Of a stretch of DNA of 28,621 nucleotides, positions 14,626-28,621 are shown one piece after another. The position numbers and the translations under genes were made by a program. Below the pieces are notes generated by a model, which saw only the letters and a program-made list of their open reading frames with translations, searched no databases and had not been told where the DNA came from. Position 1 is the first letter of the stretch; each line of letters begins with the position of its first letter. Source of the stretch: an uncultured Oscillospiraceae bacterium (lineage in GTDB: Bacteria > Bacillota > Clostridia > Oscillospirales > Oscillospiraceae). The stretch spans positions 1 to 28,621 of the forward strand of contig CAKTPQ010000022.1 of NCBI GenBank assembly GCA_934591745.1. Reading direction: 5' to 3'.

Positions 14626-14748
14626 CGTCGAAAACAGGAAAAAGTGTTAACTATGTGTAAAAGCTACAACTTTATCGGAAAATTCTAAGTAAAACATAGG
14701 AATAATCGACAGAAACCCCTTGCATACGATGTCTCATTGTGCTAATTT
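14626..14748 (+). promoter_or_regulatory. spo0A upstream control region (candidate sites)
   Basis: This AT-rich part of the 14505-14827 gap holds several weak signals. CGTCGAA at 14626 and ATCGACA at 14705-14711 (TGTCGAT on the other strand) each differ from the Spo0A box by one base. ACAGGAAAA at 14634 fits a sigma-H -35 (RnnGGAwww), but no good -10 follows. TTGCAT at 14720 plus TGC-TAATTT 17 bases on could be a sigma-A promoter. In Bacillus spo0A has both sigma-A and sigma-H promoters and binds its own product. The rest of the gap holds nothing I can name. Confidence 0.35.
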
Positions 14749-14827
14749 TTATGACGGGTCACCGAGAATTGTTGGAACACTGCGAAACGGCGGCCCGAAT
14801 GCGAATCAAAAAGGACGGGGGAAGAAA

Positions 14828-15580
14828 ATGGACACAAAAATACGCGTGATGCTGGCGGACGCCAGCGCAGAGTTCCGACTATTGCTGCGGGAGGCTCTGG
14901 AGGAGACCGGAGAGTTCCAGGTGGTAGGCGAAACGGGAGACGGCAGCCAGGTGGCGGGGCTGGTGGCGGAGACACATCCGCAGATCCTGTTGATGGACAC
15001 CATGCTGCCGGTGCTGGACGGCATCGGGGTGCTGCGGCAGCTCCGTGAGAGGGAGGAGCGGCCCCGCACCATCGTGCTGTCAGCCTTTTACAACGACCGG
15101 ATGATCCACGAGGCAGTGGATCTGGGCGCCTACTTTTTCCTGCCGAAGCCCGTCAGCGAGGCCTCGCTGATGGAGCACATGCGGCGGGCCGTGGCACCGC
15201 CGGCCCAGAGGGAGCCTGCGCCTCAGCTGGAGGGCATGGTCACGGCCATCATCCACGAGATCGGCGTACCGGCCCACATCAAGGGCTATCAGTACCTGCG
15301 GGAGGCCATCATGATCACCGTGGACGATATGGAGGTCATCAACGCCGTCACCAAGGTGCTGTATCCCGAGGTAGCCAAGCGCTTCAGCACCACGCCCAGC
15401 CGGGTGGAGAGGGCCATCCGCCACGCCATCGAGGTGGCATGGGACCGGGGCGATCTGGAGACGCTGCAGAAGTACTTCGGGTATACGGTGAACTCCGCCA
15501 AGGGCAAGCCCACCAACAGCGAGTTCATCGCCATGATCGCCGACCGCCTTCAGCTGAAGCTGAAGAAGCGGCAGGCATAG
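14828..15580 (+). CDS. spo0A: Spo0A, master response regulator of sporulation
   Basis: Transcription factor that commits the cell to sporulation once phosphorylated. The 250 residues have an N-terminal receiver (about 1-120) with phospho-acceptor Asp57 in LLMDTMLP, Ser85 in the conserved Thr/Ser position and Lys107 in FLPKP. The C-terminal DNA-binding domain (about 135-250) is almost textbook: [36 protein letters not shown] and [13 protein letters not shown]. The acidic pocket reads LADAS, so the second of the usual two Asp residues is Ala12. The start is ATG 14828 after GGGGGAAG; the open frame upstream has no family match. Transcribed alone, ending at the terminator at 15631. Confidence 0.97.
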
Positions 15581-24538: not shown

Positions 24539-24625
24539 TGGTGCGAGCGATGGGACTTGAACCCACACGACCTTACGGACACAAGCACCTCAAGCTTGCC
24601 TGTCTGCCGATTCCAGCACGCTCGC
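24539..24625 (-). tRNA. tRNA-Leu (anticodon GAG), CCA encoded
   Basis: The 87-base gene folds into a class II tRNA. The acceptor GCGAGCG pairs with CGCTCGC. The D region is typical of tRNA-Leu. The anticodon loop TTGAGGT has GAG (plus-strand CTC at 24589-24591). A long variable arm follows, then GGTTCAAGTCC in the T arm. Discriminator A and CCA are present in the DNA (24542-24539). GAG reads CTC and CTT leucine codons. Confidence 0.96.
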
Positions 24626-27309: not shown

Positions 27310-27657
27310 ATGATCTCGGCGTTTTTGCTGCTGCTGTGCAACAGCCTATTTTTGTCGCTGCACCTGTCCGGGGGCGCGGGATCGTTCCCCAAGCCGCTGA
27401 CCGCCGCACAGGAGAGAGAGTACCTGCGGCGGTGCGGGGAGGGGGACATGGAGGCCCGGAACCTGCTGGTGGAGCACAACCTGCGGCTGGTGGCACATAT
27501 TATCAAAAAGTACTATACCCAAGCGGACGATCAGGAGGACCTCATCTCCATTGGCACCATCGGACTGATCAAGGCGGTGAACACGTTTCGGCCAGACAAG
27601 GGCATCCGCCTGGCGACCTACGCCAGCCGATGTATTGAAAATGCTATACTATCGTAA
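27310..27657 (+). CDS. sigK: Pro-sigma-K, N-terminal half, interrupted
   Basis: Late mother-cell sigma factor of sporulation, cut short. The 115 residues start with a hydrophobic pro-sequence (about 1-22), the part removed by SpoIVFB-type proteases elsewhere. [14 protein letters not shown] follows, then [34 protein letters not shown] and [11 protein letters not shown], all strongly sigma-K-like (region 1.2 to 2.4). After Asn111 the frame gives AILS and stop, where the family reads EIL and continues for about 120 residues. Regions 3 and 4 are missing, so this fragment cannot work alone. GGGAGG lies 9 bases upstream of ATG 27310. Confidence 0.93.
27637..27657. mobile_element. Left junction of an element inserted in sigK (skin-like attachment site)
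   Basis: The sigK match ends at GAAAATG (27637-27643), within the codons for Glu-Asn and the first base of the expected Glu. From there the sequence is unrelated and its base composition drops in GC. This is the point at which skin elements enter sigK in other spore formers. The crossover core is probably within AATG at 27640-27643. Only the left end is visible. Confidence 0.7.
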
Positions 27658-27677
27658 CGGAACAATCGGCGGTTGAG

Positions 27678-28247
27678 GTGGCGGAACGGGTGTCTTTTGA
27701 GGCAAAATGGCGCCTGCTGGCGAGAGTGGGAGTCCGCTGCTATATTCTGATTTCCAATGTATCGGGTGCAGTAAAAGTAGCCCCGCTGCAAATTCTTCAG
27801 TTTCCAGTGGTGCTGCCGCACAAGTTTCAGGACGCAGAAAAGTTCAATTTGCAGTTCTCAGACTTCTCAGAAATCACCGAAACAGCGGACAAGCTGCGCT
27901 GGCTTCGCTACCAGAAAGGACTGCGGCAGAGAGATGTAGCCGACTATACCGGTATAGACAGGAGCACCTATGTCCACTACGAAGAATACGGCAAAGACCT
28001 CTATCCACCGGAGCACATGGAGAAAATCGCGCAGCTTTTTGAAGTGCCGGTCGATATGCTTCTGGATGATTACAATCTATTTCTGAGGAATGGTCAGGGC
28101 AACCAGATCAAGGCAATCCGAACGAAACTGGGGCTGACGCAAAAACAATATGCGGACAAGCTGGGCGTCAGCCTCGGTAATCTCAAGCATTGGGAACAAA
28201 ACCGCAAGCAGATTTTCAAGTCCACATGGGAGAAGTATTTCAAATAG
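27678..28247 (+). CDS. Double HTH (XRE-type) DNA-binding protein in the sigK element
   Basis: Soluble protein of 189 residues with two helix-turn-helix domains of the Cro/CI type. HTH1 is about 72-130, starting LRWLRYQKGLRQRDVADYTGIDRSTY in pieces, and HTH2 about 143-180, IRTKLGLTQKQYADKLGVSLGNLKHWE in pieces. The N-terminal 65 residues are a mixed alpha/beta region with no motif I know. Proteins of this layout are common in mobile regions of clostridial genomes. The likely start is GTG 27678; its ribosome binding site is weak. It begins 20 bases after the sigK fragment stop. It could regulate the element, but this is inferred from position only. Confidence 0.8.
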   Translation: MAERVSFEAKWRLLARVGVRCYILISNVSGAVKVAPLQILQFPVVLPHKFQDAEKFNLQFSDFSEITETADKLRWLRYQKGLRQRDVADYTGIDRSTYVHYEEYGKDLYPPEHMEKIAQLFEVPVDMLLDDYNLFLRNGQGNQIKAIRTKLGLTQKQYADKLGVSLGNLKHWEQNRKQIFKSTWEKYFK

Positions 28248-28263
28248 ACATAACCATAGCAGT

Positions 28264-28302
28264 AAACGAGCAGACCGGCGTTCAATGCTGGTCTGCTCGT
28301 TT
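28264..28302. terminator. Bidirectional terminator between converging genes
   Basis: A 16-bp stem (28264-28279 with 28287-28302, one possible mismatch-free pairing) and seven-base loop. It has A/T flanks on both sides and lies between the HTH gene and the minus-strand small gene. Confidence 0.85.
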
Positions 28303-28310
28303 GCTATGTA

Positions 28311-28487
28311 TTATTGCTGCGCTTTCAGATGCTTCACGGCGGCGTCCACCAGTTCCAGCTTCTGCTCCGTGGAGCAGGGCAGCTTCTGGATGGATTTCAG
28401 CGCCTGCTCGGACTGGAACTTCGCCAGCTCCTGCCCAAGCTCCTGCTGCGCCTGCTTTGATTTCGGGAAGATCAGAAATACTTCCAT
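28311..28487 (-). CDS. Small 58-residue protein of unknown function
   Basis: MEVFLIFPKSKQAQQELGQ opens a hydrophilic, Gln/Glu/Leu-rich helical protein ending KHLKAQQ. GGAAAGGAGGGC lies just upstream of ATG 28487, a strong ribosome binding site, and a terminator follows the stop. There is no signal peptide or membrane segment. I do not recognise a family; the composition suggests a small element-encoded helical protein. Confidence 0.7.
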   Translation of the reverse strand: MEVFLIFPKSKQAQQELGQELAKFQSEQALKSIQKLPCSTEQKLELVDAAVKHLKAQQ

Positions 28488-28543
28488 GGCTGCCCTCCTT
28501 TCCAGAGCGTTTTCTTCTTCAATCTATGCGTGTGTTCCGGCTG

Positions 28544-28621
28544 CTATGTAGACAAATAGAACTCGATTTCGCGGCTGCGAGGGAAATCGTATTGCCGCGC
28601 GGCTTTGGCGGTGCAGGAAGG
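28544..28621 (-). CDS. C-terminal end of an unknown protein (partial)
   Basis: The last 25 residues of a possible minus-strand gene are visible, ending QYDFPRSREIEFYLST with a TAG stop. The reading looks more protein-like than the other two frames. It lies 57 bases upstream of the 58-residue gene, probably the same transcript. Too little is visible to name it. Confidence 0.4.
   Translation of the reverse strand, partial: PSCTAKAARQYDFPRSREIEFYLST

Follow-up and report, generated by a model that had tools for sequence, protein, structure and literature searches.

Near its end, the stretch of DNA analysed here (28,621 nucleotides, hereafter the window) carries a sigK gene that stops midway, and the question raised by this locus is whether the gene has been ruined or is interrupted by an element that is removed when the cell sporulates. 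The preliminary description of this DNA leaned to the latter, reading the break as the entry point of a skin-like element.

The sigK junction in the window

The 5' half of sigK lies at 27310–27657 on the plus strand and comprises 111 native codons, after which the element supplies the residues AILS and a stop codon. The SigK family model (TIGR02846) matches this open reading frame with an E-value of 8e-44 over profile positions 7–114 of 227, sigma region 2 being the sole Pfam match, and the last native residue, Asn111, is encoded by AAT at 27640–27642. The strong match up to Asn111 and the abrupt break beyond it, as first described, are thus borne out. Comparison with 80 sigK loci, taken from at least 584 relatives found by a genome scan, indicates that most intact relatives read RCIENE[IVL]LM at the position of the break, with RCVENEILM and KCVENEILM as variants. 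Four of the 80 loci are broken at this same point and continue with foreign residues (ENAILS or ENAILP), namely those of Ruminococcaceae bacterium D5 (L035, hereafter D5), MAG S36M_St_18 (L036), Hungatella UBA5385 (L049) and MAG RUG14213 (L065). Two further loci of this set are also incomplete: L063 leaves its contig, and L070 retains ENEILM and loses the frame further on.

The base composition changes along the same region, the GC content being 0.66–0.71 upstream, 0.58 in sigK and 0.49–0.52 past the junction, in agreement with the lower-GC DNA initially noted there. A D5-like junction pattern, allowing up to three mismatches, matches the window once and none of 100 shuffles; this result and the recurrence of the junction in other genomes indicate that the match is not due to chance. 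The sigK gene of the window is therefore broken at an internal site, as in skin-type elements, and the window ends around 980 bases into the element, whose own right end lies beyond the sequence. The helix-turn-helix (HTH) open reading frame seen past the junction is genuine, as it contains two HTH_3 stretches. Two features go beyond the preliminary description: a small minus-strand gene that is conserved, and a reading frame that links the HTH region to a large serine recombinase (LSR).

A complete relative and the family of elements

The element part of the window and the left end of the D5 element share 93.1% DNA identity over 606 bases (ungapped) and 95.2% over 356 bases, whereas the N-terminal halves of the two sigK genes share 67% protein identity; this difference points to a probable recent transfer of the element from one host to another. 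In D5 the 5' half (C16:130087-130416) and the 3' half (C16:103712-104065) of sigK are ordered on one strand, and the 26,066 bases between them are sited after the same sigK codon as in the window. The final gene of this element encodes a 571-aa LSR with Resolvase, Recombinase and Zn_ribbon_recom domains, and the 3' half of sigK comes next; when the flanks are joined in silico, a 234-aa open reading frame results, reading RCIENEILMYFRN. A complete element at the same codon, with an LSR and the missing part of sigK, upholds the skin-like reading, and this close relative serves to predict what the right half of the element in the window would contain. Apart from the split gene, the best full-length match to sigK in D5 and in Hungatella UBA5385 is sigE (over the NF006158 SigE cut-off), which adjoins a SpoIIGA match that is itself under its cut-off.

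Altogether 14 elements are complete, ranging from 3.7 to 78 kb (26,066; 5,155; 10,148; 78,106; 22,163; 13,865; 33,989; 13,997; 27,151; 19,144; 9,554; 6,957; 9,000 and 3,662 bases). The LSR is present by homology in all 14, its Pfam domains being confirmed in D5 and Hungatella. A profile finds the small protein in 13 of the elements, BLAST in 12, and the HTH region occurs in eight. Other families of open reading frames found in at least four elements sit within the footprint of the LSR in other frames, with one exception, which occurs in four of the 14. The LSR and the protein of around 58 aa are the sole near-constant families across the complete elements. A special case is G004 (C19:87988-98804, L095), in which a 10-kb insertion in sigK has a short LSR of 334 aa, no small protein, and cargo that by eye includes iron-sulfur hydrogenase-like, nucleoside phosphorylase-like and deaminase-like genes; this element is perhaps domesticated or decaying.

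Attachment sites and orientation

Comparison of 15 left and six right ends, most of the left ones having been chosen by a pattern that contains the core, places the att core AATG at 27640–27643 on the plus strand; further left ends were found independently of that pattern. The predicted crossover dinucleotide AA (27640–27641, plus strand) is at the centre of the near-palindrome GGATAGCA-AA-TGCTATCC, which is formed by the ends of related elements, and the element arm of attL, TGCTATACTATCGTAACGG (27642–27660, plus strand), recurs with variants in related left ends. The elements thus have a short core with inverted-repeat arms, AATG in general and AA in G377 and G195, where the left ends read AAAACC; the reduction of the common core to AA in these two fits a crossover at this dinucleotide. 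The skin element of B. subtilis has its site near the same sigK codon and an AATGA core.

At the opposite end, all 20 right ends with a resolved LSR frame close with the LSR, directly ahead of the sigK 3' half, in keeping with the absence of a recombinase from the first kilobase; only the inverted element of G077 is arranged otherwise. In 18 of these 20 right ends the TGA stop codon of the LSR overlaps the AATGA core of sigK, the exceptions being G004 and G657; the right end of G062, which falls outside the resolved set, was also read. In G077 (C18 and C48; L192 and L178) the sigK element is reversed, with the LSR beside the 5' half and the HTH end beside the 3' half. Near-palindromic attP arms would account for both orientations of insertion.

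A search of 38 genomes for the attP pattern gave no exact match; when one mismatch was allowed 22 matches were obtained, of which 16 are of the attR type (AATGA) and six lie away from attR. Among viral contigs the attP pattern has two matches, both rejected as unrelated phage contigs, and the attL pattern has five, sigK preceding the junction in two (L126, L129) and no sigK match being found in the other three.

A reading frame across the recombinase and the HTH region

The window contains an open frame of 201 codons (27642–28247, plus strand) with two HTH stretches (Pfam HTH_3/HTH_19), which would continue the LSR frame across attP. Since the HTH region would thus prolong the LSR frame in the circular form, insertion would split two genes at once. 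Indeed, the HTH region is in the LSR frame across the core in 14 of the 15 left ends that bear it, being out of frame in G496, and the frame is open for 176–215 codons where its end is visible. When the left ends are grouped by their identity to the window HTH and by eye, eight of nine groups are in frame, which would be expected about once in 1000 if frames were random.

It is conceivable that the HTH frame is instead an independent gene started inside the element, its in-frame relation to the LSR being accidental, and this is the alternative that we weigh most seriously, even if we find it rather improbable. Possible starts do lie close to the core in G195 and G346 (codon 4), G508 (codon 5), G377 (codon 8) and the window (GTG at 27678, codon 12, in the integrated state); the HTH is absent from seven of 22 left ends, where the circle would extend the LSR by merely 8–37 residues; and many HTH homologues in databases start past the core or form fusions with other genes. 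An accidental relation is however hard to reconcile with 14 in-frame cases out of 15, nor would a gene of its own be expected to lack an ATG before codon 125, as in six of the 15 left ends, any of ATG, GTG or TTG before codon 93, as in G084, or a start before codon 55, as in G373. Moreover, whole LSR-HTH proteins occur in metagenomes.

These proteins were retrieved with the D5 LSR-HTH fusion as query, which found 63 proteins. Among the best 20 of the 63, 17 combine a recombinase domain (PF07508) with an HTH domain in 718–812 aa, and their junction reads G[ED]DS[EKV] followed by CYT, CNT or CYA in eight and by YYP or YYT in nine; the tyrosine after the core in these nine implies a core other than AATG, so that elements inserted at other sites may be their source. 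P0181 is a partial fusion. The source contigs, known by their length alone (up to 401,826 bases, P0259), are compatible with a circle, a tandem array, other sites or misassembly as possible origins. In P0252 and P0259 an LSR of another type, ending THWGEDSK, is joined to window-like HTH frames, and these could be elements stacked in tandem at one site. In P0126, P0123, P0136, P0133, P0145, P0177 and P0187, HTH left-end proteins are joined in frame to unrelated protein starts, by eye restriction-endonuclease-like, lipoprotein-like and others, which suggests that related left ends may occupy sites other than sigK in metagenomes. In respect to the LSR-HTH frame as a single gene divided by integration, it is plausible that the switch between the two forms has a function.

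The small protein as a candidate excision factor

The second near-constant gene encodes a 58-aa protein on the minus strand (28311–28487), preceded by a purine-rich ribosome-binding site recognised by eye, and is a candidate recombination directionality factor. The protein has a pI of 7.9, is identical to that of D5 and belongs to a conserved family of around 53–62 aa with 622 relatives in the protein database, no Pfam domain being present among the 120 of these that were listed. The window protein has no match in PHROG or NCBIfam and none at gathering level in Pfam, so that the label of phage-like, originally given to this small open reading frame, does not hold by these tests: it is a conserved small gene. 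Among 16 element entries the family is present in 14 and missing in G004 and G341, the contig of the latter stopping around 270 bases past the core. As a rule the gene is a minus-strand one, no more than 2.5 kb from the left end, the exceptions being G496 (plus strand), G076 (12 kb in), G151 (28 kb), G084 (around 6 kb) and G299 (around 16 kb).

Upstream of the window gene there is a sigma-E-like promoter (28521–28549, minus strand), with ACATAGC as −35 (28549–28543), a 14-bp spacer and CATAGATT as −10 (28528–28521); its score, computed with the sigma-E consensus, is attained by a fraction of 0.02 of 60 shuffles. Sigma-E-like promoters (p≤0.05 against shuffles) were found in 13 of 28 small-gene upstream regions versus four of 160 control frames (Fisher 1.7e-9), and the test was failed by the other 15 regions. 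The 28 regions are the non-redundant ones out of 55, with G287 representing the group of the window (p 0.010), and the controls were sampled from 308 mechanically defined frames of at least 100 aa in 13 complete elements. In 11 of the 28 regions, versus four of the 308, the −35 is followed by a SpoIIID-like box, a figure which is descriptive only, since these sequences also served to tune the pattern. For the plain SpoIIID consensus RRACARNY there is no clear enrichment (6/28 versus 40/308).

The small protein is likely to be a mother-cell excision factor, the trigger of excision, a proposal based on its association with the LSR and with split sigK and on its promoters. A different constant function, for example in immunity, as an antitoxin or in repression together with the LSR-HTH protein, we consider unlikely. 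Such a role would sit well with the four genomes out of 31 in which the protein occurs without a split sigK (intact in G129, G185 and G347, not found in G218), which indicate that it is not strictly tied to sigK, and with G347 in particular, where it is placed beside other genes around 1.7 kb from the intact sigK. It sits less well with a protein that alone accompanies the LSR almost constantly, that is as small as known factors and that has sigma-E-like promoters, as the C. difficile factor has (PMC5025042). In G347 (C12:78114-80637, L171) the small-protein gene is upstream of sigK, and no LSR match was found within the 6 kb read. The HTH frame and the small gene of the window converge on a 13-bp inverted repeat (arms 28264–28276 and 28290–28302), which is possibly a terminator shared by the two.

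Frequency of split sigK genes

The survey covered 394 genomes of the order of D5 and 295 of that of Hungatella, which we take from their named members to be Oscillospirales and Lachnospirales respectively; the genomes designated G come without quality values. The left-junction (attL) pattern is present in eight of the 394 genomes (D5 included) and in four of the 295 (Hungatella included), and the reversed pattern, used as a control, has no match in either set. A small-protein profile built from 12 rows has matches in 31 genomes of the D5 order, against the eight found by the attL pattern, so that the latter undercounts.

Within these 31 genomes sigK is found as two halves in 24, as one half in three (G039, G090, G287) and intact in three, with none found in one. 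A split sigK thus occurs in 27 of the 31 genomes with the small protein versus none of 53 without it, the latter being the first in order within the same draw of 394. Both halves are on one contig in 11 of the 24 two-half genomes, D5 among them, and also in G003, G004 and G657; G120, G164 and G274 were tallied as split across contigs, the 3' junction being unread there. Among the 53, the sole partial match (58–226) is that of G030, at a contig edge, and two genomes have no match at all. The visible sigK halves of most of the 27 carriers align to their part of the model with no internal stop before the junction; the 5' half is damaged in G373, and the 5' match contains two stops in G321. A second sigK-like gene in G002 was set aside as belonging to another lineage (69.5% DNA identity over 223 bases), this being probably a mixed bin. 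The share of sigK-split genomes in the D5 order amounts to at least 27 of 394 species genomes, around 7% (28 if G341 is counted).

Sporulation genes of the hosts

The window carries spo0A at 14720–15580 on the plus strand (TIGR02875, 282.7 bits for a cut-off of 200), so that, to judge from genes alone, the host is equipped to enter sporulation. Among the relatives, spoIVA is over its cut-off in all 31 split-sigK genomes searched, which is evidence of genes and not proof of spores, and spoIIID has matches in 28 of the 31, four of them as halves only. Elsewhere in the window a tRNA-Leu (gag) is located at 24539–24625 on the minus strand, between an open reading frame that by eye is acetyltransferase-like and a threonine ammonia-lyase gene.

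That an ordinary mobile element simply uses sigK as a site and ruins sporulation, the halves being leftovers and excision serving transfer only, we judge quite improbable: metagenome HTH homologues fused to other genes (P0126, P0123, P0133, P0177) do suggest left ends outside sigK, the sigK 5' half of G373 is damaged and excision of the inverted G077 element may not restore sigK, but most of the 27 carriers keep halves free of internal stops (exceptions G373 and G321), spoIVA is kept throughout, and the near-constant gene besides the LSR bears a sporulation-type promoter.

The spoIIID gene is likewise split, near codons 36–42 (STVH/KD), with ordered halves 7–20 kb apart in five genomes; single halves only are found in G088, G023 and G024. 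The loci concerned are at C7:75964-96189 in G367 (L195 and L196), C21:519468-528729 in G195 (L197), C10:2154-10855 in G076 (L198) and C67:6672-6809 in G088 (L199), and also at C1:705696-712622 in G014 and C58:9858-29634 in G020. Another serine-recombinase-like open reading frame (515–540 aa) ends right at the spoIIID 3' half in G367, G195 and G088, one lies nearer the 5' half in G076, and G014 and G020 are devoid of the sigK-type small protein. No report of a spoIIID-intervening element was found among the titles and opening parts of abstracts surveyed.

Cargo and relation to phages

The cargo was assessed from the largest proteins of the D5, G151 and G076 elements. In D5 these include a DruE1 match (1741.6 bits), a match to a type IV methyl-directed restriction enzyme, a UvrD helicase and a MobC/NikA-like protein. 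The 34-kb element of G151 carries a rhamnosidase, GH2 and GH3 proteins, a sugar transporter and a fucose-isomerase domain, and the 78-kb element of G076 has AFOR, a glycyl-radical enzyme, a MoeA-like protein and SLH/repeat proteins.

The left end of the element has no DNA match in phage and plasmid collections, and the HTH frame has no relative by tblastn in viral contigs, in which 20 candidate stretches were considered; the HTH part has matches among phage regulator families, which is usual for HTH proteins. The D5 LSR matches a PHROG integrase family, its best phage match having 37.2% identity, and against plasmids the LSR matches eight records, all below 60% identity. Neither the left end nor the recombinase thus comes out as phage-related, and the element is probably non-viral on this sequence evidence. 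The nearest phage recombinase, that of Terrisporobacter phage TPELB_ph1, was also considered and discarded: the 11.5-kb stretch read has no small-protein relative, and there is no such core near the recombinase 3' end.

Comparison with known systems

In the literature surveyed, skin-type elements are known from Bacilli, C. difficile, C. perfringens, C. tetani and Alicyclobacillus; sigK-intervening elements are spread among spore formers, and a non-prophage one is found in gerE (PMC5595907). The closest parallel is skin(Cd) of C. difficile, where sigK is also split and the LSR CD1231 has a small partner, CD1234, under sigma-E and SpoIIID in the mother cell (PMC5025042). Excision of this element requires the 72-aa factor, which is controlled by sigma-E and SpoIIID, and the LSR and the 72-aa protein suffice for excision in E. 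coli (PMC5025042). Contrary to CD1234, which has 72 aa and was reported to be without database relatives, the family described here has around 53–62 aa and is widespread, the two being set apart by description (PMC5025042). Also, the LSR here ends inside the att site beside the sigK 3' half, whereas the attL primers of skin(Cd) combine sigK and the 3' portion of CD1231 at what is termed the "5'" junction, and an LSR-HTH frame is not described for skin(Cd) in the available part of that report (PMC5025042).

The skin element of B. subtilis is alike in that sigK is split and a serine recombinase (SpoIVCA) acting at a five-base core excises it in the mother cell, but it is a 48-kb prophage-like region (PMC13141910), in contrast to a left end without DNA match to phage records. 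The gin element of B. cereus (gerE; GirC, GirX) likewise is a non-prophage gene-intervening element with an LSR and a directionality factor, by which a sporulation gene is rejoined, and differs in its target gene and host group (PMC5595907). The phages phiS63 of C. perfringens and MMB025 of Alicyclobacillus also integrate in sigK but are infectious (PMC13141910), whereas the cargo here, as seen in the largest proteins of three elements, consists of defence or metabolic genes. Finally, in mycobacteriophage BPs attP lies within a coding gene and integration alters the C-terminus of the protein, the split gene there being the repressor (PMC4557955) and here the recombinase itself, which gains or loses an HTH part of around 200 aa. 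In the Oscillospirales and Lachnospirales no sigK element is described in the titles and opening parts of abstracts surveyed, which is weak evidence, as the subscription literature is thinly covered.

Proposed mechanism and significance

The insertion codon, the ordered sigK halves, the right-end LSR of the relatives, the small gene with its sigma-E-like promoters and the in-frame LSR-HTH arrangement are read from sequence, and from them we infer programmed excision, the directionality-factor role and a function of the HTH extension. Programmed excision is likely on these grounds, and we hold with considerable confidence that this is a sigK-intervening element, excised in the mother cell by means of its LSR and a small protein driven by sigma-E. 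In growing cells the element would stay inserted in sigK behind Asn111. Sigma-E, possibly aided by SpoIIID, would turn on the small protein of 28311–28487 in the mother cell, and this protein would shift the LSR from integration to excision; recombination of attL with attR would then yield an unbroken sigK and a released circle. The spore would retain the integrated copy, and the element and its cargo would thereby be inherited. In the circle the recombinase frame would pass through attP into the HTH frame, so that circle and integrated copy would encode recombinases with different C-termini.

A broader proposition, for and against which we see equal grounds, is that integration reciprocally splits sigK and an LSR-HTH recombinase, whose C-terminus would report the integrated or circular state, that a sigma-E-dependent micro-protein would unlock the element in the mother cell only, and that sigK would serve as a parking site for defence and metabolic islands, which spores inherit and mother cells discard.

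These results place a skin-type rearrangement in one gut order, with a testable excision factor and an att site that doubles as the stop codon of the LSR, and with a cargo that includes a Druantia-type defence gene and glycan-use genes. If the proposed excision is true, matched sets of recombinase, factor and att site could be used as recombination tools, and the frequency of genome editing for sporulation among gut commensals would become directly testable.
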